Below, piece by piece: positions 2,691-64,000 of a stretch of DNA of 64,000 bases. The DNA lies in NCBI RefSeq assembly GCF_040954645.1, contig NC_092808.1, positions 82,089,889-82,153,888 of the forward strand. The letters run 5' to 3'. The notes beneath the pieces were generated by a model. The model made no database searches, was not told the DNA's origin, and saw only the letters and a program-made list of their open reading frames with translations. The translations under genes were made by a program, and so were the position numbers. Source of the DNA: Diabrotica undecimpunctata. Its lineage: Eukaryota; Arthropoda; Insecta; Coleoptera; Chrysomelidae. The first letter of the stretch is position 1. The number at the start of each line of letters is the position of its first letter.

Positions 2691-2759
2691 GATTATTAAC
2701 TGCAGCAGATTGTATTTAACATTAGTATTTAACATTTTCTCATAACATAACCAAAATAT

Positions 2760-3108
2760 TGTTAGGAATTTATTAATTGTTAAGTCTTTAATTTATAATG
2801 TCTTGTTCTTATCTTAATTCATTAAAAAGCACAATGACTGATATTTATTTATTTTCACTAAACATACATAATTTATTAAAAAGCGAACGTAACATTTTAT
2901 CGCGAGCGCGTCGTCCGAGTATTAACTGCCCTCCATATAAAAATGTTGTATTTATATACGAAATCCTGATATACTAGAACAGCATCGAAAGATCGAGAAG
3001 CTTAGCCGGCTCATTCACCATAATTTTGGTTCTAGACTTCCACCGAAATTTCTACAATAAAACAGAATAATTAGTCATAAAAGTTAGGCCAGTATATTTA
3101 TCGTAACA
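2760..3108 (-). repeat. 3' LTR of the Gypsy element
   Basis: Direct copy of 8579-8927 with no difference noticed. It begins TG and ends CA on the plus strand, with TGTTA/TAACA inverted ends. The last codons of the gag-pol frame and its stop (3098-3100) lie inside its first 11 bases in element orientation. AATAAA-like signals are present on the minus strand. Confidence 0.95.
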
Positions 3109-6100
3109 TTGCCCCCCTCTTAAAAGATGGTTCCTCCTGGAACCTTGTCGGGACTGGAACCGGAACTGTATGCTGGTATCGGCAACTGGACCCTCTTTTA
3201 CAACTTCCAGTTGTATAAAAATGACAAGGGACGGTTTTCTCTCCGCACCAGTAACTATGCGGATTGCAACAGACTAACACCTGGACTTCGGTGTCTTTAA
3301 AGATCTCCTCCACCATATTTCGGATAACCCTCCAATCTAATTGGCGGCACTCCAACTTTGGCATGGCTAACTTTTGCACGTCGGACTCTAGTACGTGCCC
3401 TCTCAATTGAAGTAAGGCTTCCCATACATCTCGGTAGGTAGGTTGGTCACGGGCAGTGTCTTTTGTTACCAGGTAGAAAAGGTAACGTGATGCATCTTGG
3501 AGTTTCAAGGTTTTACCGGGAGCTGGCACTTGGCATTGAAGTTCTGCAACTCGACCAAACTTCCTTCGAAAGACGGATGCCAACCCTGGTGCGTCTTTGA
3601 TACTGGCCGGGATGGTAAGGGCCAGCGAGTAATCATCGGGGAGCGCGAGTAAATCTTGCTTTTCTTCAGTGGTAACACCATGTCTCGCTTTACCGGTACC
3701 TCCATAGGCACCCATGAATTCCTCAAACGTGAGGTCAGACACATCTTGGACTTGGTTTACTTCCACTTCTTCATCTACGTCGTGGTCACCTTCGAAAGAT
3801 GCCAACCGGTTATGGTGTACTATCATCGGCTTTCCCCTCGGAATCTTGCTTATTCGGTAGATGACATCGTTGATCTTCTCCATGATGAGGTATGGACCTT
3901 CCCAAAACTGCTGCAATTTGGGAGAACAACCTTTTCGCTTCTTGGGATTATACAGCCATACTTTGTCGTTCTTCTTAAAGCAACCCTTTTCGGCTTGTGT
4001 ATCGTACCGTTTCTTCATTCGGTCGCTAGCAATCTGAAGGTGGGAACGGACCAACTCATGTACATCGTCCATTCTTCTTCGTAATTCGATCACATAATCT
4101 TCACCTGCTACATCTTCTCCAGGTCGACACCCAAATTCTAGATCACAAGGTAGTCGCATTTCGCGTCCGAATAGGACTCTGGCTGGTGTCTGGCCCGTTG
4201 ATTCGTTAACAGCAGATCTGTAGGCCATTGTGAAGAACGGAAGGTATTGGTCCCAGTCTCGCTGATGATCGGACACCATCTTTGTCAAATACTTGCCAAC
4301 TGTCCTATTCATTCGTTCTACCATACCATCCGATTGCGGATGATACGCGGTAGTTCTTGTTTTCTTCATGCCTAGTCTATCACATATTCCTTGGAATAGA
4401 TCACTTTCGAAGTTCCTGCCTTGGTCACTATGGATCTCCAAAGGCACTCCAAATCGGCTGATATATTCTTGGATCAACTTATCTGCAACGGTGGCGGCCT
4501 TCTGGTCTGGAAGTGCGTAAATCTCGACCCACTTAGTGAAGTAATCCATTACTACCAACATGTACTTGCCCCCATTTTCACTTTCTGGAAATGGCCCTGC
4601 AATGTCCAAAGCTATTCTTTCAAACGGGCTTCCAACATTATATTGTCTCATAGGAGCTCTCCTTTTCCGGTGAGGCCCGTTACTCGTAGCACAAATAGTA
4701 CATTTCTTACACCAGTCTTTTACGTCGTCGGAACTGTTCATCCAATAAAACCGTTCCCGAATTCGCTGAAGGGTTTTCCTTACACCAAAATGCCCTCCCG
4801 ATGGACTGTCGTGTAACTGACGAAGTACTTCGGCTATTCTGCTCTTTGGAATCACCAACTGTCTTCTTTTCTCTGAACCGTCATCATTTTCCAGGACTCG
4901 TTTGAGCAAGCCATCTTCGATGATAAATGAGTCCCACTGGGCCCAATACGTCTTAACTACTGAGCATAGGGTTGATATTTCCTGCCAAGGTGGTCGACGG
5001 TTTTCCTCTTTCCATTTTCGGATTTTCTGTATAACTGGATCTCTCTCTTGTTCTTCCCTTATCTTAGTGGGCGTCCAGTCGTCGTTGACAATCGTCGTTC
5101 TTAGCACTGCTGCTTCCTTGGATTCCGTTTTGTTGCAGTGGGGACACTCTGCTGGGCATGGCCGTCTGGAAAGAGAATCAGCGTTTCTGTGGCTAACTCC
5201 GGCTCGGTGCTCAATCTTAAAATCGTATTCTTGGAGTCGTTCGATCCACCTGGCTATCTGACCCTCTGGATTCTTAAACTGCATCAACCACTTAAGGGCG
5301 GCATGGTCGGTTCGGATTAGAAACTTTCTGCCATAGAGGTATTGATAGAAGTGCTCTACTGATTTAACTACTGCTAGAAGTTCTCTCCTCGTGACGCAAT
5401 AATTCCGCTCAGGTTTTGAAAGAACTTTACTAAAATATCCGAGGACTCGTTCCTGTCCTCCTTGAATCTGAGACAGCACTCCTCCAATTCCCACATTACT
5501 TGCATCTGTATCTAAGATGAACTCTCCTTCTGGCAGTGGATACCCTAAAATTGGTGCTGTTATTAAGTGCTTTTTCAACGTTTCAAAGGCATTTTGGCAG
5601 TCTATATCCCAGCGGTATTCTCTTGCTTCCTCTGTAAGTCGCGTTAATGGCTTAGCGATATCTGCAAACTTCTTAATAAACCTCCGGTAGTAAGTACATA
5701 GTCCAAGAAAACTTCTCACTTGATGTTTGTCAGTTGGTTTTGGCCATTCCTTAATGGAATCGATTTTTCCTTTATCCACGGCCACTCCTTCTTTACTGAC
5801 TATATGACCCAGATAATTGACTTTACCTTGAAATAGCTGGCACTTCTTGGGGTTTAGCATCAATTGGGCAGCTTTAAGTCGATTAAAAACGTTTTCTAAA
5901 TTCCTCAAATGATCTTCGAATGTCTCCCCCAAGACGATTATGTCATCTAAATAAACCAGGCATGTTTTCCAAGATAACCCTCTCAACACATTTTCCATAA
6001 GCCTCTCAAATGTCGCAGGAGCATTACAAAGTCCAAATGGCATAACGTTGAATTGCCACAATCCAGATCCTGTGGTGAAGGCTGTCTTTTCTTTATCGAC

Positions 6101-8542
6101 TGGGTCCATTTCTACCTGCCAGTATCCAGACTTCAAATCTAAAGTAGAAAACAATTTACTTCCAGCCAATGTGTCCAATGTGTCATCGATCCGAGGCAGA
6201 GGATAACTATCTTTCTTGGTAACGTTGTTCAGCAAACGGTAATCCACACAGAACCTCGTCGTTCCGTCTTTCTTCTTAACCAGGACCACCGGAGAGACCC
6301 ATGGACTCGTAGAAGGTTCTATCACCCCGTCTTTCTTCATTTCCTGAACAATCGTTTCAGCTTCCTCTCTCTTCGCCTGTGGTAATCGTCGAGCTGTTTG
6401 ACGAATTGGCTTAGCATTACCAGTATTAATTTTATGCTTAACAACGGTAGTTCTTCCCGTCTTTCCTCCTTTCGGTACGAAAATATCACGATACTGCCGC
6501 AGAAATTCCCTTAATTTCCTTTTCTCCATCTGATTTAGAGACTGTCCTGCGACTGCAACCATTTGGTCGAATTTGTCGTTGGAATTATCAGATGTTGTCG
6601 CCTGACGGATTATGGATGTCACAGGTACACAAGTTCCTACTTTTGTCTCTTTCTTTATGGTCACTGGGTAGTCGTTGACATTGATAAGTCTCACAGGAAT
6701 TTCTTTAGCCGAAGTCACCAATTCCTTTCCAATTATGATTCCACGACCAACCTCATCGTCGTGGTTCCAAGGCTCCATCATAACAGGTCTCCCTTCGTCT
6801 ACAATTCCCTGTAGTCGCGCTACTATGATCGTTTCGCTTCTCGCAGGCACGACTGTATCTTCTGTAATGGCTGCTTGCACAGTGTTGTCATTATGTGGAT
6901 GGAGAAATACCTCCTCGTTGCCAACTTTGATTACCTTATTCTTAAAATCCAATTGGAATCCATGCATATTCATTACGTCCATTCCTAATATAACATCCTC
7001 TTCGATGTCAGCAACTATAACAGTATGGACAAACTTTTCTGCCCCAATTCCCAATTGTACCTGGATTTCTCCATGAATGTTGGCATTTTCACCTGTAGCG
7101 GTCCGAAGTCGTAACCTCGTTGGTAACAGTTTCTTTCGGCTGTTTATAACTGTCGGGCGTATAATGGTTCTGGTCGCTCCGGTATCCACCAACAACGTAT
7201 GCTTTTTACCATTTATGTCTCCATCTACATATACACTATCTTCACGACATTTCAAAGAAGCTATTAGTATAAGAGGGTCTTTGGAAAAGTTTTGGGTCGA
7301 AGCTGCTCCCCTAAAGCCGACTCGTTCTGGTTTTCCTGATGGTGAGTTTCTTGATTTTATGGTCTTCGTTTTATTGCATGTAATACTTTTCATCATATTA
7401 ATGAGCTGGTCAAGTTTATCTTCATCTCCTTCCTCTTTTACAGTCCTAACTTTACTGTACCCGCCAGAGGCCTGCGTAGCTGACTCATATTCGAGGGCGG
7501 CGGATAGGACATCAACCAGCGTCTTGTGACGAGCTAATCGCAGTGTTCTCTGCATTTCATGATCACGAAGACCATCAATAAACGTTTGAACGGCCAACTT
7601 TTCCATCATGTCTTCGGGAGCTGTTGGATAAGCATATCGTACTAATCTGGCAATATCTACCTCATATTCTTGAAGAGCCTCATCTTTCTTCTGTCTACGA
7701 TTTTTAAGCTGCGACTGATATACATGCTCCAAATGTTCGTGGCCATATCGCATATTTAACCTCTTCTTCAGTTGTTCGAAATCATCGGTCTCCTCTACGG
7801 CTATGGTCTGAAGCACATCTAAGGCATCTCCTCGAAGAGCGATAGTCAGGTTTACAGCCTTTTCTTTTTCAGACCATCCATTCGCTCTTGCAGCTGATTC
7901 GAACTGTTTCATGTAGTTGTTCCATGACGATTTTCCGTCGAAAGTTGGGACTTTGACATGCACAGAACTTCCACTTCCTTCAAATTTCGGCCGTGTTTCC
8001 AACTTACATTTCGTCTCGTCTTCTTTTATCTCTGCTGTAATTGGATTGTTTCCTCTCTCTGCTGTCCCTGTTTCCTCCAGCTTCTTTTCCATCTCTTTCA
8101 TCTTTTCTTCGAAGGCCGACATATCGGCAGCAACTTGGTTTTTTAACGAAGATATTCTATCGTCGAGGGCAGACATCTCAGAAGTGACTTTAGAGATTTC
8201 CGAAGAGATGTTAGCAGAAACTTTGCTTTCCAGGGACGAAATCTCGTTAGAAACTTTGTTTTCTAATGACGCGATGTCACCAGAAACTTTGGCTACATCA
8301 GAAGAAACTTTCGAAATATCGTCAGAAACTTTGTTCTCTAATGATGCGATGTCACCAGAAACTTTCGAAATCGACGAGAGGACAGCATCTTCAAATATAT
8401 AAGTCTCTGGATCTAGTCCTTCTTCTAGCAAAGCGTTCTTTAGTCGTTGGACTAACTCAGCCTTTTTTCCGGTAGAAGCTAATTCTCTGTCTTCAAGATG
8501 TCTTCTTAAATTAGTCACTGTCAGCTCATAAATCGTAGCCAT
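3098..8542 (-). CDS. Gag-Pol polyprotein with SAP, coiled-coil, Gag, PR, RT, RNase H, IN, macro domain and CCCH finger
   Basis: Single fused Gag-Pol frame of about 1,814 codons. The frame is open from a GTG at 8548, but the first ATG is at 8542, and numbering here starts there. Domains in order: SAP-like DNA-binding motif (about 6-38); repetitive coiled coil (about 55-158); Gag core (about 194-358); aspartic protease DTGA at 453-456 with LGMDV downstream; RT with YLDD at 864-867; RNase H with catalytic DAS at about 1013; integrase HHCC (H1244, H1251, C1278, C1281) and DDE (D1313, D1373, E1409, the last pair spaced by 35); TARG1-like macro domain (about 1623-1757); CCCH finger (1773-1791). Gag lacks the usual CCHC knuckle. 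It should assemble particles, reverse transcribe element RNA and integrate the cDNA. There is no stop or frameshift. The macro domain and finger are not standard Gypsy parts; they may modify or bind ADP-ribose and RNA, which is inference. Confidence 0.95.
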   Translation of the reverse strand: MATIYELTVTNLRRHLEDRELASTGKKAELVQRLKNALLEEGLDPETYIFEDAVLSSISKVSGDIASLENKVSDDISKVSSDVAKVSGDIASLENKVSNEISSLESKVSANISSEISKVTSEMSALDDRISSLKNQVAADMSAFEEKMKEMEKKLEETGTAERGNNPITAEIKEDETKCKLETRPKFEGSGSSVHVKVPTFDGKSSWNNYMKQFESAARANGWSEKEKAVNLTIALRGDALDVLQTIAVEETDDFEQLKKRLNMRYGHEHLEHVYQSQLKNRRQKKDEALQEYEVDIARLVRYAYPTAPEDMMEKLAVQTFIDGLRDHEMQRTLRLARHKTLVDVLSAALEYESATQASGGYSKVRTVKEEGDEDKLDQLINMMKSITCNKTKTIKSRNSPSGKPERVGFRGAASTQNFSKDPLILIASLKCREDSVYVDGDINGKKHTLLVDTGATRTIIRPTVINSRKKLLPTRLRLRTATGENANIHGEIQVQLGIGAEKFVHTVIVADIEEDVILGMDVMNMHGFQLDFKNKVIKVGNEEVFLHPHNDNTVQAAITEDTVVPARSETIIVARLQGIVDEGRPVMMEPWNHDDEVGRGIIIGKELVTSAKEIPVRLINVNDYPVTIKKETKVGTCVPVTSIIRQATTSDNSNDKFDQMVAVAGQSLNQMEKRKLREFLRQYRDIFVPKGGKTGRTTVVKHKINTGNAKPIRQTARRLPQAKREEAETIVQEMKKDGVIEPSTSPWVSPVVLVKKKDGTTRFCVDYRLLNNVTKKDSYPLPRIDDTLDTLAGSKLFSTLDLKSGYWQVEMDPVDKEKTAFTTGSGLWQFNVMPFGLCNAPATFERLMENVLRGLSWKTCLVYLDDIIVLGETFEDHLRNLENVFNRLKAAQLMLNPKKCQLFQGKVNYLGHIVSKEGVAVDKGKIDSIKEWPKPTDKHQVRSFLGLCTYYRRFIKKFADIAKPLTRLTEEAREYRWDIDCQNAFETLKKHLITAPILGYPLPEGEFILDTDASNVGIGGVLSQIQGGQERVLGYFSKVLSKPERNYCVTRRELLAVVKSVEHFYQYLYGRKFLIRTDHAALKWLMQFKNPEGQIARWIERLQEYDFKIEHRAGVSHRNADSLSRRPCPAECPHCNKTESKEAAVLRTTIVNDDWTPTKIREEQERDPVIQKIRKWKEENRRPPWQEISTLCSVVKTYWAQWDSFIIEDGLLKRVLENDDGSEKRRQLVIPKSRIAEVLRQLHDSPSGGHFGVRKTLQRIRERFYWMNSSDDVKDWCKKCTICATSNGPHRKRRAPMRQYNVGSPFERIALDIAGPFPESENGGKYMLVVMDYFTKWVEIYALPDQKAATVADKLIQEYISRFGVPLEIHSDQGRNFESDLFQGICDRLGMKKTRTTAYHPQSDGMVERMNRTVGKYLTKMVSDHQRDWDQYLPFFTMAYRSAVNESTGQTPARVLFGREMRLPCDLEFGCRPGEDVAGEDYVIELRRRMDDVHELVRSHLQIASDRMKKRYDTQAEKGCFKKNDKVWLYNPKKRKGCSPKLQQFWEGPYLIMEKINDVIYRISKIPRGKPMIVHHNRLASFEGDHDVDEEVEVNQVQDVSDLTFEEFMGAYGGTGKARHGVTTEEKQDLLALPDDYSLALTIPASIKDAPGLASVFRRKFGRVAELQCQVPAPGKTLKLQDASRYLFYLVTKDTARDQPTYRDVWEALLQLRGHVLESDVQKLAMPKLECRQLDWRVIRNMVEEIFKDTEVQVLVCCNPHSYWCGEKTVPCHFYTTGSCKRGSSCRYQHTVPVPVPTRFQEEPSFKRGAMLR
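3109..3125 (-). promoter_or_regulatory. Polypurine tract
   Basis: On the minus strand the bases just before the 3' LTR read AAGAGGGGGGCAA, a purine-rich plus-strand primer as expected for LTR elements. It is also translated: it encodes the K-R-G-A near the end of the polyprotein. Confidence 0.85.
3170..3226 (-). other. CCCH zinc finger at the end of Pol
   Basis: The translation CHFYTTGSCKRGSSCRYQH has the spacing C-x7-C-x5-C-x3-H of RNA-binding CCCH (Tis11/CPSF-type) fingers. It lies about 17 residues after the macro domain and 23 residues before the stop. Since no CCHC knuckle is visible in Gag, it may be the only nucleic-acid-binding zinc finger outside the integrase. Confidence 0.85.
3275..3676 (-). 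other. Macro domain (TARG1/OARD1-like) at the C-terminus of Gypsy Pol
   Basis: Residues of about 1623-1757 align in order with the small ADP-ribose-binding macro domains of the TARG1 (OARD1) type: a QDLLALP...SLALTIPASIKD segment matching the first ligand loop, LASVFRRKFG, RYLFYLVTK, a PTY-x-(n)-L helix, LAMPKLEC and the final VIRNMVEEIF helix. The Lys of YLVTK (codon 3461-3463, about residue 1694) sits where TARG1 has its catalytic Lys84. The glycine-rich loop with the catalytic Asp in TARG1 (after MPRIGCG) is shortened here to MPKLECRQLDW, so the Asp equivalent appears lost. The domain could bind ADP-ribose, hydrolyse it weakly, or serve a structural role. Homology is judged by eye. Confidence 0.8.
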
Positions 8543-8561
8543 TTTCACAATTTATTTTATA

Positions 8562-8577
8562 TCACACTTCTGCACCA
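8562..8577 (-). promoter_or_regulatory. Candidate primer binding site
   Basis: One base inside the 5' LTR the minus strand reads TGGTGCAGAAGTGTGA. It starts with TGG, complementary to the CCA end of a tRNA. The matching tRNA was not identified. Only 36 bases separate the LTR from the ATG at 8542, an unusually short leader. Confidence 0.7.
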
Positions 8578-8578
8578 C

Positions 8579-8927
8579 TGTTAGGAATTTATTAATTGTT
8601 AAGTCTTTAATTTATAATGTCTTGTTCTTATCTTAATTCATTAAAAAGCACAATGACTGATATTTATTTATTTTCACTAAACATACATAATTTATTAAAA
8701 AGCGAACGTAACATTTTATCGCGAGCGCGTCGTCCGAGTATTAACTGCCCTCCATATAAAAATGTTGTATTTATATACGAAATCCTGATATACTAGAACA
8801 GCATCGAAAGATCGAGAAGCTTAGCCGGCTCATTCACCATAATTTTGGTTCTAGACTTCCACCGAAATTTCTACAATAAAACAGAATAATTAGTCATAAA
8901 AGTTAGGCCAGTATATTTATCGTAACA
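8579..8927 (-). repeat. 5' LTR of the Gypsy element with TATA box
   Basis: 349 bp, identical to 2760-3108. On the minus strand a TATATAAATA box lies at 8769-8778. A CAGTTA initiator-like site follows about 25 bases downstream, which suggests where transcription starts. Confidence 0.95.
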
Positions 8928-8931
8928 ATAT

Positions 8932-38574: not shown

Positions 38575-39516
38575 AATTAAACCCTTGGCGCATAGTGGGT
38601 CATATATGGCACAATACTTAGTTTGATTCCTAACTGTTAGAGATCGAATCTTATTTTAAAGTATTTATGCATGACATGTCCATAGAAAGCACATATTTCG
38701 TATAACCGGTAATAAAGCGCTATTTCAATGAAGCAAAGCGAACTTTTATGAAAATTTCCAAATGGCCGCGGTCTGACAGCTGTTCATAAGATTTGTGCAA
38801 TTTGATATTCAATTATCGAAGTTTCTACTGAATATTTTTATACAAAAAAAAGTAGCGACATCAAGTATAGACCTTCAAGAAAGAATTTCAGTATTTTCAC
38901 GGATTTCTTTATATTTTGGTATTTTTTTATCAAAAATATGCTTGTGCCATTATGCCACAATATGCACTGTCGTGCAAAACTCTCTTTCATATATGGCACA
39001 ATACCTATGCGTTCTGAACTTGGTATTATTATTATTTTTTTATTTTAGATAATCGATCCAAAAAGGTTTTATGGTGAAACTCTATGGTGGTAGTGGACAT
39101 ACCAGATAGTAGTTAAGACGAAGGGCTATCAGATTATGATATTTTCCCTATTATATTAGCCCCAGAGTCAGACTTTGAAGATGATATAATAGATAATAAT
39201 GAATCAGATATTATTATCCCAAAAACGGATTTAGAAAGCAGTTCGGATAGCGAAGATGATATTTCTTTGGACGAATTATGACGTAATCTAATAAAGAATA
39301 GAAATAAAAATCATCCAACTTGGAAATAAGGAAATTTGGTAACGTCAGATGATAATATTATAAGATTTCTCGGTTCTACTGACCTACCACCTGAGTTGCA
39401 ACAGGCGGATTACCCTTACGCATTTTTTAATTTTTTTTTTTTTAACAAATGAGATGATCAAAGATATAGTTTATTAAACAATATTATATTCAGTGGAAAA
39501 AAGATCTCAAAAATCT

Positions 39517-39521
<5 letters not shown>

Positions 39522-39607
<86 letters not shown>
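39522..39607. repeat. (TA)n microsatellite, about 86 bp, LINE tail
   Basis: Pure TA repeat between the target duplication TCAAAAATCTTTGAA (39507-39521) and the LINE 3' end. It probably began as the LINE tail. Confidence 0.95.
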
Positions 39608-39609
<2 letters not shown>

Positions 39610-40166
39610 CGGGGATCCTACAGCTTCTGCCGCTTCCCGCATTTCGATCGCCATCTTTTTCTATCTCTCCAGGTGTCTTCATCAATGGCTCTGTCTTTCA
39701 TGGTTTCCATAACACCTTGTATCCAAGACTTGGCTGGTCTTCCTCGTTTCCTTCTATTACTTGGATTGTATTCCATAGCTCTTTTTGGCCATCTGTTGTC
39801 GTCCATCCTCTGTACGTGTCCATACCATATTAACTGTCTAGTTTCTATTCTTTCAGAAGTTGTATGTACTCTAGCTGTTTTTCTTCTAATTTCAGAATTA
39901 GGTATACGTTCTACTCTTGATATACGGCAAGCTCTTCTTAGGTAGTCCATTTCAACCGTGTCAACTTTTTTCTTTCCTTTTACTGTCATTTGCCAACATT
40001 CTGCTCCATATGTAAGAATGGGCTCTACAATTACTTTGTAGATAGTCATTTTAGTTTTCATAGTAGCTATGTTGGACCAAAGTATCGAATTCAGAATTTG
40101 AACACTCTTCCTGCCTTGTTGCACTCTATAGTCTATATCTCGTTCCGTTGTTCCTTTACTGCAGAT
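39608..40166 (-). pseudogene. Second LINE family tail fused to the first, ending in (TA)n
   Basis: A 186-codon minus frame (39618-40178) reads YRVQQGRKSVQILNSILWSN, VEPILTYGAECWQMT, LRRACRISRVERIPN, IETRQLIWYGHVQRMD and RKRGRPAKSWIQGVMETM. It is the C-terminus of a LINE family different from its neighbour. It is open throughout, ends with the (TA)n tract 39522-39607, and directly abuts the GAA tail of the first LINE at 40166/40167. Confidence 0.9.
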
Positions 40167-55634: not shown

Positions 55635-56047
55635 TTGTAGATAAATTTGTAGTAATATAGTATGTAAATATTATAACATTGTTTTATTTCTTCCTTTCTC
55701 TTAAGTCTGCATTCATTTATCTAGAGAGCTGGTTATATAGTTCAGTGATACAACATTTTAAGAACAGATACATTGGAATTTATTGATAACTGATCTTGCT
55801 TATTACATAACTTAGTAGTAATGTTTAAAAATAATGTATATAGACATAGTGTATGTGTATGAATTGTAATGGAACTTTTTACATTAAAACTGGATGTTAG
55901 GTGTAGTATTCATTTTTCTATTCCAATGTTTTAAGTCTAAAAGCGATTCATACATTGCCAAAGTTATCAGCTGTATGTTTGTAGTTTCATTTTGTCTAAT
56001 TATGAACTATTGTGTTTTTAGTTGGTTTTACATAGAGACAGGCTGTT
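55635..56047. other. 3' UTR and flank of NDUFB1
   Basis: AT-rich. A possible polyadenylation signal ATTAAA is at about 55882. No other feature. Confidence 0.5.
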
Positions 56048-56455
<408 letters not shown>

Positions 56456-56499
56456 CCACTCTTATTAAGAGCTCTCAGATTTGCTTACTGCAGTTAATC

Positions 56500-58688
56500 T
56501 CTCCGCATTCTTAAGTAAAGTTATACAACAGTATGCTGTATGACTTTACGTTTGTCACAATTTTCTTCCACTCATTTCGATCTGTGTATAGTTACATCCA
56601 GTTTCTCACTTTCAGGATTTAAATATCCCTCTGTGGGTCTTTCCATTTCTGGCTTCCATCTGGTGACCTTCTTAATAAGTAGGTATTTTTTTGTTCTGTC
56701 TATGTGTTCCAGCCATCTCAGTCTACACTTAAATAAATCTAACTGTATCTTCTCCTTTCATTATGTCTCTCGGTTTATTTTTCTTCTCATTTCTCTATTT
56801 TCCATTCTTATCGAGCCCATAATTCTTCTGAGGATTGTCCTTTTGAATATTCTTAATCTTTCTTCATCTTGGCACATTGTCTCAGCTGCATATGTATCTA
56901 TTGGTCTGATTGCAACTCTGTATATTTTCAGTTTTGTATTTCTGAATAAGTTCTTGTCCTTCATTACCCTATGGTATCTCAAGTATGTTTTGTTGCCTGC
57001 TAGTATTCACTCTGCTACTTCTTCTCTTCTCTTATTTTTGCCATTTACAATTACTCCCAAATGAGTATTTAAATTGTTGAACTCTTTCAAAAGGGTAGTT
57101 TTCTATCTTATTTCTCTCGTCTTACTATCATCTCTTCTAGAGCAGATTAAATATTTTGTTCTTCCTTCGTTAATTTCTAGACCTCTTTTCCATGCATATG
57201 TTACTATTTGTGTTTAGGAGTGGAATATAGTTCCTTTATTTCCGCTGGCCTTGACTTCCTTCTACAACTATGTTGAATAGTGTGGTTGACAGGGAAGCAC
57301 TTTGCCACACTCCTGTTTCTATTGCAATTGAGTTTGTAATACCTTCTTCTGTTGTTATTTTAGCTCAAGATCCATCCATACTCATTTTTGTTAATCTTAT
57401 TAGCTTTTCTGGTATAACTTGAGATTTCATTTAGTTAAATAATTTATTTCCTCCAGTATAGTCAAAGGCATGTGGGGAGTTGTATGTTGTGTTCATGGCA
57501 TTTCTCAATTGTTTGTGAAAATATGTGGATCTGCCTTCTGTGAATCCCAGCTAGTAGTCCCCAATTTTTTCTCTGAATTAAGTGAGCTTTTGTCTGATGA
57601 GTAGGTACTGTTAGAATTTTGTGTACTGTACAGAGTAGAGATATTTGTCTATAGTTGTTACAGTCTGTTACTTTTCCTTTCTTAAATATTGGTATACTTC
57701 TGCTGTCTTTCTAATCCTCGAGCATTTCTTCTGCTTCCCATATTCTGCTTCACTGGTCTGCATTTTCTTTGTTGAACTTTTCATCATCATCATTGGCTCC
57801 ACAACCCATGGTGGGTCTTGGCCTGCTCAAGGATAAGTCCCCATTCTCTCCTATTCTTCGCCTTGGCTTTCCAGTTTCGTACTCCCAACATTCTCAAGTC
57901 TTCCTCCACCTGATCCTTAAATCGTGCTCTGGGCCTGCCTCTCCTTCTCACTCCATCTCTTCTTTGGTTATAAATATGTTTTGGCGGATCCATATAATTC
58001 ATTCTCTCTATGTGACCTAACCACCGCAACCGGTTTATTTTGATGGACCTTTGTTGAACTTTTACAAATTAAAATACTTAAGCGCTGTCATTACTATTCT
58101 GTTCTAGGTTCTTTAACAACTCTTTCCATCTATTTTTTTTGTTTTTGTAACATTGGTCTGCTATTTTCTTTGTATTCATTTCGATAATGTTCTTTAGTTA
58201 ATATATTTCCTTCTCTCCTAGCACCTCTTCAACTGAATTCAAAATGGATTATGTTATATTATTTGTCCATATTTTCTCGAGTCTTATTTGTTTCTGTTAG
58301 ATTTTTCTTTAGGATTCATATGGTTCTCTTAGTTTCTGTACTCTTAACTTCTTTATAGGTTCCAGCTCCTCGTGCTTTGTCTTGTTCTCTCTATTTTAAT
58401 TACCTTCATTTTTATTTTTCTTATTAATAGAAAATATTCTGTGTCCGCGTTTGCTCCTCTATATGATCTGACGTCACGTTTTATTGTTTTCCATTTTTTG
58501 GATATTAGTATATGATCTACCTGTTGTGCTAGGTATCAGCCATGTTACTTTATGTTCTCTTCTGTGCACGAAGTTTGTGCTTATAATGTAACTGTTTGTT
58601 ATTGCTGCTAGGTGGCATAATTTTCTTCGTTTAAATAAATAAATCGTTTTCTTCAGTTATATTTAGTCTCTTTAAATCCCATAGACGC
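56500..58688 (-). pseudogene. Decayed LINE (EN and RT), interrupted by a nested LINE tail
   Basis: On the minus strand from 58688 down the endonuclease end is readable (VDHILISKKWKTIKRDVRSYRGAN, about 58530-58440). A linker follows with IADQCYKNKKNRWKELLKN. After the nested insertion 57782-58048, RT pieces appear: IPIFKKGKVTDCNNYRQISLL (about 57680) and GLEINEGRTKYLICSR. The connection region reads KLKIYRVAIRPIDTYAAETM and RRIMGSIRMENREMRRKIN (56761-56982). RWLEHIDRTKKYLLIKKV closes it near 56690. Stops and shifts are frequent, and the YADD region is missing. Confidence 0.8.
57782..58048 (-). mobile_element. Nested LINE tail with 15-bp target duplication
   Basis: On the minus strand a 79-codon frame reads RWLGHIERMNYMDPPKHIYN, RRRGRPRARFKDQVEEDLRM and WGLILEQAKTHHGLWSQ, then ends in an ATGATGATGATG tail. 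CTTTGTTGAACTTTT is duplicated at 57767-57781 and 58049-58063. The frame is intact, so it is younger than its host. Confidence 0.92.
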
Positions 58689-58695
58689 ATTATCC

Positions 58696-61206
58696 GTATT
58701 TATTTGCCGAATTGTTTTAGTTATACTAGTAGTTTGTTCTTTTCTTCTGTAGTTTTAAGTTTTGCGGGCTCTACTGGCCTTAGACAATTTAACAATGTTG
58801 TTAATCACTTGGGTAGACTGCTAGATTTGGTCTTATCGCATTTCAGTTGTGAAGTTAAGCATGATGACTCACCTTTGGTCTATGAAGACTCTCATCACCC
58901 AGCTCTTCTAATATCATTTACGGATATATTTGTAAAAGAGCCTAAATTTAGGTATGGTTTGGAGCAGTTAACTTACAACTTTAAAAAAGCCAATTTTCCT
59001 GCTTTATATCGAGAACTGTATGAAACGGATTGGAACTCTCTGGATACTTCTAATGACGTTAATGAAACTTTAAATAACTTTTACGATAAGATTTTTTCTG
59101 TGTTCAATAAGTATATTCCAGTTTACAAAAACTTTAGCCATAAATACCCACCCTGGTTCGATGCTGATATCATTCACAACATCAAATTAAAAGCAAAGTT
59201 TAGAAAAAAGTTTAAACGATTCAAAAATCAGTGTGATTTGCTTGAGTTTCAACGGTTAAGACACCTTGTCAAATCAAAAATCAGCTTGGCCTACAATGTA
59301 TATGTCGAGAATATACAAATTGCCTTATCCATCAACCCCAAGAAGTTTTGGTCGTACGTAAATTCAAAAAATAAAAGTTCAAGAATTCCTGGTGTGATGA
59401 AATATAATGACATTACTACCTCCGACCCACAAAATATTGTGAATATGTTTGCAGAATTTTTCAAGAGTGTTTTTCTGTCATCAGATATTAATTTCAATGC
59501 TAACTCTTCCTCAATCAATGCAGATTACTTAAATTTTTATCCTATTTTAGAGTCTGAGATAATTTTGGCTAGTAAGAAATTGAAAGACAAAATGATGTGT
59601 GGACCTGATAATATTCCATCCTTTTTGGTTAAGGATTGCATAGGTGCCTTAACTGTGCCACTATTAAAAATTTTTAATTTATGTCTTCTTAACAAGGAAT
59701 ATCCGAGTCTCTGGAAGGAGTCAAAAGTGTGCCCAATATTCAAAACTGGTGAAAAGGGTCAGGTAGAAAACTACAGACCAATTTCCATTATTTGCAATCT
59801 ATCGAAAGTCTTTGAAATAGTTTTGTATAATCGTATTTACTCACCCACTCGTAATCAGCTGTCTCAATATCAACATGGTTTTGTCTCCAACCGGTCCACT
59901 GTGACAAACTTATTAATGGTCACACAATATATCTCAGCGGCCCTAGATAATAGAAGTCAAGTTGACGTCATATATACTGACTTTACGAAGGCGTTCGACA
60001 GAATTCACCACGGCGTATTACTTTCTAAATTGTGTCTCTTTGGTCTTTCTGAGGATGCCGTGACTTTTATGAGGTCTTACTTGTCAAATAGAACGCAGTT
60101 TGTTGCTTATAATGGTTACAAATCGGAAAAGTACCTAGCTTCTTCAGGGGTTCCACAAGGTTCTAATCTAGGTCCATTATTATTCTTGTTATTTATTAAC
60201 GATCTGTGTGAATTAATTTCTGCACCATGTTTATGTTATGCCGATGATTTAAAGATTTATTCATTGATAAGTGACCTTAATGATTGTCATTTTTTGCAGA
60301 GTGAACTGAATCGTGTACATGAATGGTGTAATGCAAATCATTTGAATCTTAATGCCAATAAGTGCAAAGTAGTTAGTTATTCTAGGAAACAATCTAATTT
60401 ATACCATCCTTATATTATCAATGGCAATGAACTTGAACGTTTAAATAAAATTAAAGACCTTGGAGTTACATTTGATTATAAACTCACCTTTGTTGAACAT
60501 GTAAATTTAAAGGTTAAAGAAGCACTTAAATCTTATGGATTCATAATTAGAAATAGTCGAAATCTCACTAATATTAAGGCAATTAAATTACTTTATTACA
60601 CTTTTGTACGCTGTAAACTGGAATATGCCTCTGTCATTTGGTCACCTTTTTATGATGTACATATCCAACTTATAGAGCAGGTGCAGCGTAAATTTTTAAA
60701 ATTTTTGTCTCTCAAAATTAACGGCATATATCCCAAGAGGGGCATCAGCAATAGTGAGTTGTGTAGCGGTTTGGACGTAGTATCATTAGAATCTAGACGA
60801 ATTAATGCCTCCCTAATATTCCTGTACAAGCTACTACATAATCTCATTGACTGCCCTGATATTCTTCGACAAATAAATTTTAACGTTCCATCTTATCCAG
60901 TGAGAAATTCAATTACGTTCAGAAATACACAAGCTAGAACTAATCTTATGTTAAATTCTCCTCTATTTCTCATGTGCAACTATTATAATTCCTTAAGTGC
61001 TTACTGCGATATATTTCACTGCAGTTTAAAGCAGCTTACTAGGATGGCTGAGATCTACCTAGGTGATTGAGTAGTTTCTTTATGTTAACGTAAAATACTC
61101 GAAAAATGTGTTATTTAGTTAGTACTTATGAATTATTAATATATCTTTTAATTGTAGTATTGTATTTTGTCCTATAAATGGATTCTGTTGGACAATAAAC
61201 GCTATT
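58696..61206 (+). mobile_element. 5'-truncated CR1/Jockey-type LINE with 7-bp target duplication
   Basis: The unit starts inside the endonuclease domain and ends in ACAATAAACGCTATTATTATT-type sequence. ATTATCC is duplicated at 58689-58695 and 61207-61213. It sits between the older minus LINE and the 3' UTR of the R4 LINE. Confidence 0.85.
58704..61070 (+). CDS. LINE ORF2 fragment: endonuclease end and reverse transcriptase
   Basis: The frame is open for 788 codons; the first codon listed is TTG and there is no native start, because the element is 5' truncated. Residues of about 28-72 are the endonuclease end, with RLLDLVLSH and the DSHHPALLI motif. RT follows: CGPDNIPSFLVKDC (299), ENYRPISIICNLSKVFE (355), QHGFVSNRSTVTNLL (390), YTDFTKAFDRIHH (424), SGVPQGSNLGPLLFLLFIND (481) and YADD at 512-515. 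The helical thumb and C-terminus end at the stop before 61071. Words and order fit the BS/Jockey/CR1 group of LINEs. RT copies LINE RNA at the nicked target. The absence of stops in a truncated copy points to recent insertion. Confidence 0.9.
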   Translation: MPNCFSYTSSLFFSSVVLSFAGSTGLRQFNNVVNHLGRLLDLVLSHFSCEVKHDDSPLVYEDSHHPALLISFTDIFVKEPKFRYGLEQLTYNFKKANFPALYRELYETDWNSLDTSNDVNETLNNFYDKIFSVFNKYIPVYKNFSHKYPPWFDADIIHNIKLKAKFRKKFKRFKNQCDLLEFQRLRHLVKSKISLAYNVYVENIQIALSINPKKFWSYVNSKNKSSRIPGVMKYNDITTSDPQNIVNMFAEFFKSVFLSSDINFNANSSSINADYLNFYPILESEIILASKKLKDKMMCGPDNIPSFLVKDCIGALTVPLLKIFNLCLLNKEYPSLWKESKVCPIFKTGEKGQVENYRPISIICNLSKVFEIVLYNRIYSPTRNQLSQYQHGFVSNRSTVTNLLMVTQYISAALDNRSQVDVIYTDFTKAFDRIHHGVLLSKLCLFGLSEDAVTFMRSYLSNRTQFVAYNGYKSEKYLASSGVPQGSNLGPLLFLLFINDLCELISAPCLCYADDLKIYSLISDLNDCHFLQSELNRVHEWCNANHLNLNANKCKVVSYSRKQSNLYHPYIINGNELERLNKIKDLGVTFDYKLTFVEHVNLKVKEALKSYGFIIRNSRNLTNIKAIKLLYYTFVRCKLEYASVIWSPFYDVHIQLIEQVQRKFLKFLSLKINGIYPKRGISNSELCSGLDVVSLESRRINASLIFLYKLLHNLIDCPDILRQINFNVPSYPVRNSITFRNTQARTNLMLNSPLFLMCNYYNSLSAYCDIFHCSLKQLTRMAEIYLGD

Positions 61207-61325: not shown

Positions 61326-64000
61326 CTAGGTGACTTGGTATGTCGGTGTATCTCCCAAAAATTTTCGTATGCATCTGGACGTCGAAAGTAACACAGCTTT
61401 CTGCATAATCTTATATAGATGTTCGTTTAGACCCAGCTTTTTTATGTTTTCTAGGAGGCTCTTCGGGATGACTCCAGTGGTAGAAAGAATAATGGGTATC
61501 GTCTGGGTACTTTCCATTCTCCATTGTCTCCTGATTTGTATTTCTAGATCTCTGTACTTGGCGATCTTTTCGTTGTATTTAACACGTAAATTATTGGTGT
61601 TGGGTATCGTCACATCAATAAGTGTTGTTTGCCTAGTAATTTTATTAACTAGTATGAGATCGGGTCTATTATGGGCCACTGGTTGGTCTGTAAGCACAGT
61701 GCGGTCCCAGTATAGCTTGTAGTTGTCATTTTCAAGCATTCTATCAGGGACGTATTGATAATAAGGAAGATGGTCGGTTTGGAGAAGTCCCAGTTTGTCA
61801 GCTAGTTCTTGGTGGATAATCTTTCCTACTGAGTCATGGCGTTCTTTATAATCAGTACCGACAAATGCCTGGCAGCCACCGGTAAGATGTTGGATGGTTT
61901 CTTGGGCTTGGCATCCATATCGGCATTTGTCATTTTGGACTTGGGGATCTTTAACAATATATTTCAGGTAATTTTTAGTTGGACTAACCTGATCCTGAAT
62001 GGCAAGTAGGAAACCCTCAGTCTCGGGAAACATCTTTCCTGATGTCAACCAATAGTTCGACGCTGTATTGTCGACATATTCTTGGCTGATCTCATTGAGA
62101 TGTCGCCCATGCAGAGGTTTACTCATCCAGGTGCGCATTTTGTCTTGTTTAGTCAGGTGGTTTATGCGCATTTCTTGTTCCCTCAGTTTAAGCGGCATCG
62201 TGTCATCTACTGCGCAAATTGCTCGATGTAAAGTAGATGTCTCAGCCTGTACCTGAAAATAAGTTCTTAAATTAGCAATTTGTTTATCCAATTGCTCACC
62301 TATATCCATAAGTCCTCTTCCCCCTTGATACCGCGGTAATGTTGTTCTCTCTACTGCACTGCGTGGGTGATGTTTTTGCGCCTTTGTGAGAAGTGTTCTT
62401 ACTTTCCGCTGAAGATCCTCTATATCTGTTTTTGACCACTTTATAATACCAAATGAGTAGCTCAGCGCGGAACAGGCGTACGTATTTAATGCCTTAAACA
62501 AATTTTTACTATTAAGATATGACCGATTTAGTTGTCTTACTCTTCGTACGAACTCCGAAGTTAGTTCAGTTTTCATTTGTTTATGGTCAATTTTCCGCGC
62601 TTGTTTTACTCCGAGATATTTGTACATATCATTTTCACCCATTGCCTCGATGTTTTGGCCATCTTGCATATCGAAACCTCCGGGCTGAATCTTTCCTCTG
62701 ACTATATTTAGTATACGGCACTTGTCTAGTCCAAAATTCATACTGATATCATTTGAGAAATTTTCTACAGTTTTTAGCATCTCATCTAGGTGGTTTCGAG
62801 TGGAAGCCATTAATTTTAAATCATCCATATACAACAGATGATTAAGCTTCGCTACAACAGTGTTGTTATTTTTGATGCTAAAACCTGAGTCAGTAGAGTT
62901 CAGCAGCTGAGATAGTGGGTTCATTGCTAGGCAGAACCAAAGTGGACTCAACGAGTCCCCCTGGAAAAGCCCCCGGTTAATAGGGATATTTTCAGTTTCG
63001 ATATTAATTTCACCCGGTATTTGAAGGTGAATTTTAGTCTTCCACTCTGCCATTATATTCTTCAAAAAGGTCACGAGATTATCATCGACTTTATATATTC
63101 TTAATATATCTACCAGCCATTCATGCGGCACTGAATCAAAAGCCTTCTTGTAGTCAATGAAGGCAGTAAACAGGTTTCTTTTTTTGGTGTATGCCTGGTT
63201 AGAAATGACTGAGTCGATAATAAGTTGTTCTTTGCAGCCCATGGAGCCCTTAGCGCATCCTTTCTGTTGAGGCTCTATGATATTGTTCAGAGCACAATGT
63301 TGGTAGATACGCCGGGCCACACAGGATGTGACCAATTTGTACAAAGTTGGAAGACAAGTAATTGGGCGGTACTTTGCTGGATCTTGGGTATTACTTTGAT
63401 CCTTCGGTATTAGATAAGTGGTTCCCTGAGTAAGAAATGATGGTATTTCCTGTGAATTAGAAATAATATTATTAATAAATACTGTTAAAAGCTCATGAAC
63501 ACTCCAAAACTTCTTTAGCCAGAAGTTTTGAACTCCGTCTGGTCCAGGAGATTTCCAGTTATGAAGCTCTTTGATAATGTTCGAGACTTCTTCAGTGGTG
63601 AAAGGTTCATAAGAAATATTACTGTAGTGTTGACAGTTGTTCGTCGTTTGTTCAATCCATCCAGCATTGTTATTATGAGTAGCTGGCGTCGAAAGTTGGT
63701 TTCCCCAAAACTCATGAATTTCTTCTTGGCTTGGGTAGGATTTATTATTTGCATTTTCTACAGTGGAATTAAGTTTCCTATAGAAAGCCTTCTCTGCTTG
63801 CTTAAAAAGTATGTTGTCGCATTTCCGGTGGTTACTAACCTTGTACCTCCTCAGGCGGCCTGAGTAAACAGATAGTTTTTGTTTTAATGTGTCCAGGCAT
63901 TGTTGAGGTGTGTTGTTTTCTGGATCATGTCGTGAGTGTCTTAGAGTGTTAAACAATATTTCTTCAGCTCTTTTGATGATTTTTCTACTTCTTACTCCTC
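61326..64000 (-). CDS. R4-clade LINE protein: RT and restriction-like endonuclease, N-terminus outside the window
   Basis: The minus frame is open from the window edge to the stop at 61326. The Met-equivalent at 63956 is only a TTG, and codons continue upstream (VRSRKIIKRAEE), so the start is beyond 64000. Numbering from 63956: RT with SPGPDGVQNFWLKKF (136), KYRPITCLP (195), FIDYKKAFDSVPH (266), GLFQGDSLSPLWFCLA (329) and YMDD at 376-379. Next comes a Cys/His cluster C678-x3-C682-x7-H690-x4-C695, and finally a PD-(D/E)XK endonuclease with RPD at 764-766 and Asp781 in LIDVTIP. RT before a C-terminal restriction-like endonuclease defines the R2/R4 superclade; the arrangement and wording fit R4 (Dong-like). 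Such elements cut preferred sites and prime cDNA there. No stop is present in about 890 codons. Confidence 0.93.
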   Translation of the reverse strand, partial: GVRSRKIIKRAEEILFNTLRHSRHDPENNTPQQCLDTLKQKLSVYSGRLRRYKVSNHRKCDNILFKQAEKAFYRKLNSTVENANNKSYPSQEEIHEFWGNQLSTPATHNNNAGWIEQTTNNCQHYSNISYEPFTTEEVSNIIKELHNWKSPGPDGVQNFWLKKFWSVHELLTVFINNIISNSQEIPSFLTQGTTYLIPKDQSNTQDPAKYRPITCLPTLYKLVTSCVARRIYQHCALNNIIEPQQKGCAKGSMGCKEQLIIDSVISNQAYTKKRNLFTAFIDYKKAFDSVPHEWLVDILRIYKVDDNLVTFLKNIMAEWKTKIHLQIPGEINIETENIPINRGLFQGDSLSPLWFCLAMNPLSQLLNSTDSGFSIKNNNTVVAKLNHLLYMDDLKLMASTRNHLDEMLKTVENFSNDISMNFGLDKCRILNIVRGKIQPGGFDMQDGQNIEAMGENDMYKYLGVKQARKIDHKQMKTELTSEFVRRVRQLNRSYLNSKNLFKALNTYACSALSYSFGIIKWSKTDIEDLQRKVRTLLTKAQKHHPRSAVERTTLPRYQGGRGLMDIGEQLDKQIANLRTYFQVQAETSTLHRAICAVDDTMPLKLREQEMRINHLTKQDKMRTWMSKPLHGRHLNEISQEYVDNTASNYWLTSGKMFPETEGFLLAIQDQVSPTKNYLKYIVKDPQVQNDKCRYGCQAQETIQHLTGGCQAFVGTDYKERHDSVGKIIHQELADKLGLLQTDHLPYYQYVPDRMLENDNYKLYWDRTVLTDQPVAHNRPDLILVNKITRQTTLIDVTIPNTNNLRVKYNEKIAKYRDLEIQIRRQWRMESTQTIPIILSTTGVIPKSLLENIKKLGLNEHLYKIMQKAVLLSTSRCIRKFLGDTPTYQVT

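Follow-up and report, generated by a model that had tools for sequence, protein, structure and literature searches.

Organisation of the element and its tail

The window (the whole stretch of DNA analysed here, 64,000 nucleotides long) contains a complete Ty3/Gypsy element at positions 2760-8927 on the minus strand, with the domains in the order protease, reverse transcriptase, RNase H and integrase, and with both long terminal repeats (LTRs) and a target-site duplication present. The 5' LTR (8579..8927, minus strand; 349 bp, TG...CA ends) is identical over 349 bp to the 3' LTR (2760..3108, minus strand), and the duplicated ATAT flanks both LTRs, with its left copy at 2756..2759 and its right copy at 8928-8931. 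Given the identical LTR pair and the presence of ATAT at both ends, the insertion is recent, as a preliminary description of this DNA had proposed in calling the element young.

A single open frame of 1814 aa covering Gag, Pro, Pol and a tail (3098..8542, minus strand) starts with an ATG at 8542 and ends at 3098, its end and stop codon lying within the first 11 bases of the 3' LTR. Pieces of this frame were compared with Pfam. The region of Gag and the start of the protease (7049..8542, minus strand) holds a SAP domain at the Gag start (8429-8524, minus strand; 2.5e-06), a coiled-coil-like region and Retrotrans_gag, and an aspartyl protease was also matched. The reverse transcriptase and RNase H (5285..6280, minus strand) were matched at 3.6e-39 (RVT_1) and 4.3e-34, respectively, and the integrase (3800..4852, minus strand) showed zinc-binding, core and p58-type C-terminal domains. 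The SAP domain at the Gag start is likewise seen in many gene models of the beetle Aromia moschata, and a literature search combining SAP domain, gypsy, gag and retrotransposon returned a single co-mention, in a paper that by its title concerns MLV integrase. Elsewhere in the window, long microsatellites read as poly-(YI) frames (55894-56514 and 39493-39945), and the frames at 58704-61070 and 61326-63998 resemble non-LTR reverse transcriptases by eye.

Behind the integrase, a linker of the form F.EFM...AR.GVT (3680..3748, minus strand), partly conserved across four element rows of the alignment, leads into a macro domain of the TARG1/OARD1 type (3263..3679, minus strand), which was identified by sequence homology and predicted fold. 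The best solved-structure relative of this domain was TARG1 (2eee, 2e-22), and the five macro-domain sequences that the window tail matched at E<=1 among solved structures were all C6orf130/TARG1. Structure prediction gave a macro fold, again with TARG1 as the top match. Homology and fold prediction thus agree with the preliminary description, which had placed a TARG1-like macro domain and a CCCH finger at the end of Pol and had proposed kinship to a host ADP-ribosylation enzyme. The window piece was absent from the matches of the Pfam family PF01661 (Macro) at E<=1; two Aromia models scored 18.7 and 18.4 bits with this family, under its cut-off of 22, and P0012, a clear TARG1 relative of 739 aa, also stayed below it (21.1 bits).

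The tail ends in a CCCH zinc finger, C-x7-C-x5-C-x3-H (3170..3238, minus strand; PF00642, 9.5e-07), which scored 29 bits against a Pfam cut-off of 20.5 and satisfies the pattern C-x7/8-C-x5-C-x3-H. Its four zinc ligands were invariant in all four element rows aligned; among the 11 tails read from another family in this genome, described below as family B, one (L034) had lost the second finger cysteine. The best solved matches of the finger were CPSF4, with RBM22 also listed and ZAP not, and a single finger says little in this respect. The connection of the finger to the ZAP and PARP group, drawn in the preliminary description, finds no support in these matches. The basic character of the tail is confined to its CCCH end (pI 9.1), the macro domain having a pI of 6.3, where 120 further macro rows have a median of 8.8.

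Copies, descent and reading frames

The genome searched comprises 1.74 Gb in 2867 contigs, several of them longer than 130 Mb. A search with the window tail, which defines family A, gave 5861 first-look candidates, of which 150, ranked by tail identity, were scored. In this identity-ranked set, 90 of the 150 copies were identical to the window over 189 residues and none had a stop codon inside the tail. When the TARG1-type domain of P0012 was used as a second query, 4849 candidates came up and 150 of them were scored; these comprised a probable host gene (L031) and 149 others at 40-44% identity, three of which have an internal stop. The 11 rows that were read (L032-L042) belong to another Gypsy family, B, which has a macro and CCCH tail of its own. 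Relatives in the protein database were P0002 (67% identity) and the Aromia gene models (about 41%); the Aromia tail itself had 185 relatives, 120 of them listed.

Several further observations were made on these copies. The probable host gene (G000:C3:100934206-100934619, minus strand; open frame of 760, 49% identity) has a low-complexity N-terminus, an intact TARG1-type macro domain with the equivalents of Lys84, Gly123 and Asp125 and, by eye, a second, degenerate macro-like part, a build resembling that of P0012. Among 30 copies with identical tail proteins (L001-L030), the 3' LTRs of 29 were 78-99% identical over the aligned part, and that of L001 matched across 34 bases only. This spread among copies with the same tail protein hints at recombination between LTR subfamilies. 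A family A copy about 57 kb before the window (G000:C6:82032841-82033407) has a listed open frame of 3518 codons, close to double the usual length.

A tree of the macro domains grouped the window, P0002, two Aromia and two family B sequences into one clade with a support of 100/99 against 48 other TARG1-type rows including L031, and the same support was obtained for five element rows against 47 others. The host rows nearest to this clade were weakly supported (77/78). The single element clade fits one capture, and we therefore infer a single capture of a TARG1-type macro domain. The linker and the C-terminus of the integrase diverge together with the tail, as vertical descent would give. A 251-aa metagenome protein, P0201, encoded on a contig of 1011 bases, has a TARG1-type macro domain preceded by a partial Integrase_H2C2; this macro domain fell outside the element clade. 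P0201 could be a host gene or the product of a further capture, and it is a possible second association of integrase and macro domain.

The Gag of the window copy lacks a CCHC knuckle, and the first 498 residues of the frame contain no more than three cysteines. An intact CCHC at the Gag end, with the protease in the -1 frame, was found in all six family A copies with frames of 1420-1422 codons and in all four family B copies with frames of 1413-1414 codons. No intact CCHC was present in the long-frame copies (>=1784) inspected, two from family A and four from family B (L073 and L074 read alike). In these six and in the window, the knuckle is lost or broken in a way that differs by family (window 7079-7779, minus strand; L063-L078). 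The sequence GGAAAACTAGAACGGGTC adjoins the Gag stop and is identical in all eight two-frame copies compared (8 of the 10, from both families), which suggests that it is the site of a -1 frameshift. Judged by frame length alone, the 150 listed family A rows divide into 59 two-frame, 69 long and 22 neither, and the 149 rows listed after L031 in the P0012 search into 43, 6 and 100. The window copy represents a variant with one frame and no knuckle, and family B has a corresponding variant of its own.

These observations raise the possibility that the finger and the macro domain take over the binding of genome RNA in single-frame copies without a CCHC. The knuckle is intact in 10 of 10 two-frame and 0 of 6 long-frame copies inspected and absent in the window, and the long class is large in family A by frame length alone (69 of 150). 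However, the two-frame copies carry the same tail beside their knuckle, six of family A having been matched over the whole tail. The tail therefore did not arise as a replacement of the knuckle. The long-frame copies may, moreover, be non-autonomous and helped in trans, and we regard this substitution as improbable.

Catalytic residues and constraint on the tail

The catalytic dyad of TARG1 consists of Lys84 and residue 125, and mutation of the latter leaves a covalent intermediate, according to the available part of PMC7050489, where the residue is printed as Glu125; other ALC1-like hydrolases are described there as having a mechanism unlike that of TARG1. In the OARD1 rows of our alignment residue 125 is Asp, and the rules for Lys84 and residue 125 applied here are those of human TARG1. 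The G123E mutant of TARG1 is described as deficient in ADP-ribose binding in the portion of PMC5928194 available.

The equivalents of Lys84 (VTK; codon 3461-3463) and Gly43 (codon 3584-3586) are retained in the window. There, as in P0002, the Gly123-Leu-Asp125 loop lacks two residues; in the alignment, Gly123 and Asp125 fall opposite a gap in the window, as does Asp125 in P0002. Family B has Arg in place of Lys84 (VTR in 11 of the 11 copies read) and Ala at Gly123 in the row aligned; its residue 125 is Asp in 10 of the 11 copies read and Asn in L038. Aromia has Gly at the Gly123 position: among 103 models with a readable tail, the SGLD with Gly123 and Asp125 was kept in 101 and the LVTK with Lys84 in 100, a count that leaves out 18 of 121 models in which the pattern missed the two ends of the tail. 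The CCCH was present in all 103, the selecting pattern itself including the finger end. Position D32 of the alignment, which we take to be the Asp contacting adenine, and the Gly43 equivalent are retained in all four element rows. Since Lys84, Gly123 or Asp125 is changed in each of the two own-genome families, the removal of ADP-ribose is unlikely as their common function. The ancestral domain was probably able to remove ADP-ribose, since the Aromia copies retain the full catalytic dyad, and the Aromia-type domain may still cut.

The residues bear directly on one of the two main rivals to a binding role, namely that the tail acts as a hydrolase in counter-defence, stripping the ADP-ribose that host PARPs or TRPT1-like enzymes place on the RNA ends, cDNA ends, Gag or Pol of the element, as viral macro domains do. 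Both catalytic residues are present in the Aromia copies, and the ADP-ribosylation of RNA ends is reversed in vitro by TARG1 and viral macro domains, as stated in the part of PMC6582358 available. According to a review (PMC7050489, in the sections available), transposon-derived RNA is one possible target. Loss of parp-1 in Drosophila tends to raise mobile-element transcripts, those of the gypsy superfamily included: in the accessible text of PMC7712786, five of eight significantly changed elements were up in the mutant, and nine of ten further elements that rose without significance belong to the gypsy superfamily. The same text, however, allows the effect to be indirect, and the published work on RNA ends and on parp-1 mutants serves here as background only. 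The Asp125 loop is missing in the window's family and P0002, Lys84 is missing in family B, and Gly123, at which Glu abolishes ADP-ribose binding by TARG1, is missing in the former family and Ala in the latter. Hydrolysis is thus an unlikely explanation, and the removal of ADP-ribose considered in the preliminary description is not supported for the window copy, whose loop is two residues short.

The constraint on the tail was estimated from nucleotide changes between copies. Comparison of the window with three copies of family B gave a macro-domain pN of 0.37-0.38 and a pS of 0.85-0.87; the domain is constrained despite the saturation of pS. In family A, changes present in at least two copies gave a pN/pS of 0.09 (7 S, 2 N) for the macro domain and 0.08 for the 1500 nt of upstream pol; the macro figure is too low, because the 46 copies set against the window had been selected by tail identity. 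The shared changes of family B gave a pN/pS of 0.28 in the macro domain (9 S, 9 N; 10 copies, one reference) and 0.12 in upstream pol (4 N, 9 S; 5 copies), and the shared figure for the CCCH part comprised one N and one S only. For private changes, the ratio was 0.27 upstream; within the tail it was 0.43 for the macro domain and 0.71 for the CCCH part (10 N, 4 S). The family B tail looks less constrained than pol, although the numbers are small.

Such figures could also describe a captured domain that is decaying and merely carried along by a successful element. The macro domain does change faster than the reverse transcriptase (67.9% and 92.5% identity, respectively, between the window and P0002), a difference that relaxed constraint would also yield; the two families are altered at different catalytic residues, and the private changes in the family B CCCH lie near 0.7. 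Against this, no stop was found in the 150 listed family A tails, ranked by tail identity, or in 147 of the 150 listed rows of the P0012 search, the fold and zinc ligands are retained, and macro pN is well under pS. We consider decay very improbable. The preliminary description had expected the tail in other copies and under constraint, and it recurs in many own-genome copies, family B, P0002 and Aromia, with a macro domain that is not neutral (pN < pS). Its argument that the intact frame implies recent use is too direct, since the single long frame of this copy goes with absence of the CCHC knuckle, the knuckle-bearing copies inspected having two frames; use is better argued from pN < pS and from retention in three lineages.

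Possible roles of the tail and known systems

We tentatively favour, at slightly less than an even chance, a captured host TARG1-type macro domain with a CCCH finger at the end of Pol whose shared present-day job is binding. Binding is proposed as the shared job because the catalytic residues are altered in both families, which nevertheless still have the fold and the finger, with constraint on the macro domain. A Ty3/Gypsy element would have captured the host domain long ago and carried it since, together with the CCCH finger, behind its integrase. In the window's family and family B, the tail would be kept for binding, more likely than for cutting. As a tail of Pol or integrase, it may hold its ligand, either nucleic acid or an ADP-ribosylated molecule, close to the element RNA, the cDNA or the target site, and the basic CCCH end could add RNA contact.

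The conserved fold may point to nucleic-acid binding by analogy with TARG1, for which the available part of PMC5928194 reports that RNA is bound by the surface and that the pocket mutants G43E and G123E still bind it. The pI of 6.3 of the window macro domain speaks against simple surface RNA binding, and if catalysis is irrelevant, the retention of Lys84 in the window's family is left unexplained.

The other main rival is a chromodomain-like targeting, in which the C-terminal domain of the integrase would recognise chromatin marked by ADP-ribose or PAR, whether at breaks or at sites of active PARP-1, and steer integration to it. The macro domain lies directly behind the integrase C-terminal domain, macro domains act as ADP-ribose readers (PMC7050489, as far as its available text goes), and the Gly43 equivalent and D32 are kept in every element row; the phosphate loop at Gly123, however, is altered in both own-genome families. 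We give such targeting a low probability. A broader variant, in our estimate also unlikely, makes the ADP-ribose module behind the integrase a working part of the life cycle: an active eraser in the Aromia type, and in the window's family a module that reads ADP-ribose or traps it covalently, and thereby directs integration or interferes with PARP signalling. In that family Lys84 is kept and residue 125 lost, the state in which TARG1 is reported to build up a covalent intermediate.

A domain added behind the integrase can show what limits an element. At least three lineages of elements have kept a TARG1-class macro domain, as have 150 copies scored from a single family; this points to ADP-ribosylation, or to a closely similar process, as a factor in retrotransposon replication. 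The three lineages, with three catalytic states, form a natural series for comparing eraser and reader.

That a retroelement can gain a macro domain is already known from fish retroviruses. Epsilon-like endogenous retroviruses of fish have macro-domain ORFs (Basta et al. 2009, as cited in PMC4977317) and are, like the window element, LTR retroelements with an acquired macro-domain reading frame; unlike it, they are vertebrate retroviruses whose macro-domain frames are described as additional ORFs, and the available text of PMC4977317 mentions no CCCH and does not state the macro class. Literature searches for macro domain together with retrotransposon, gypsy and ADP-ribose, for OARD1 with gypsy, and for macrodomain with Ty3 and integrase gave no match, most subscription journals lying outside the search. 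Within the literature searched, a TARG1-class macro domain fused to a Gypsy Pol, with a CCCH finger and lost catalytic residues, had no precedent.

Human TARG1 (OARD1/C6orf130), of the ALC1-like class, differs from the window domain, which sits in a retrotransposon Pol, has a Gly123/Asp125 loop two residues short and is followed by a CCCH finger. Viral macro domains, such as that of alphavirus nsP3 and others, resemble it as cases of viral macro-domain use, and the best viral fold match in BFVD was Kadipiro virus VP8 (1.6e-14, TMq 0.62, rmsd 8.5). P0201 shares with the window an integrase-type zinc domain beside a TARG1-type macro domain, but lies outside the element clade. Chromoviruses carry a chromodomain at the C-terminus of the integrase. 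By analogy, the window tail may be compared with this captured reader domain, which occupies the same place in Pol and differs in its fold and in the mark that it reads.
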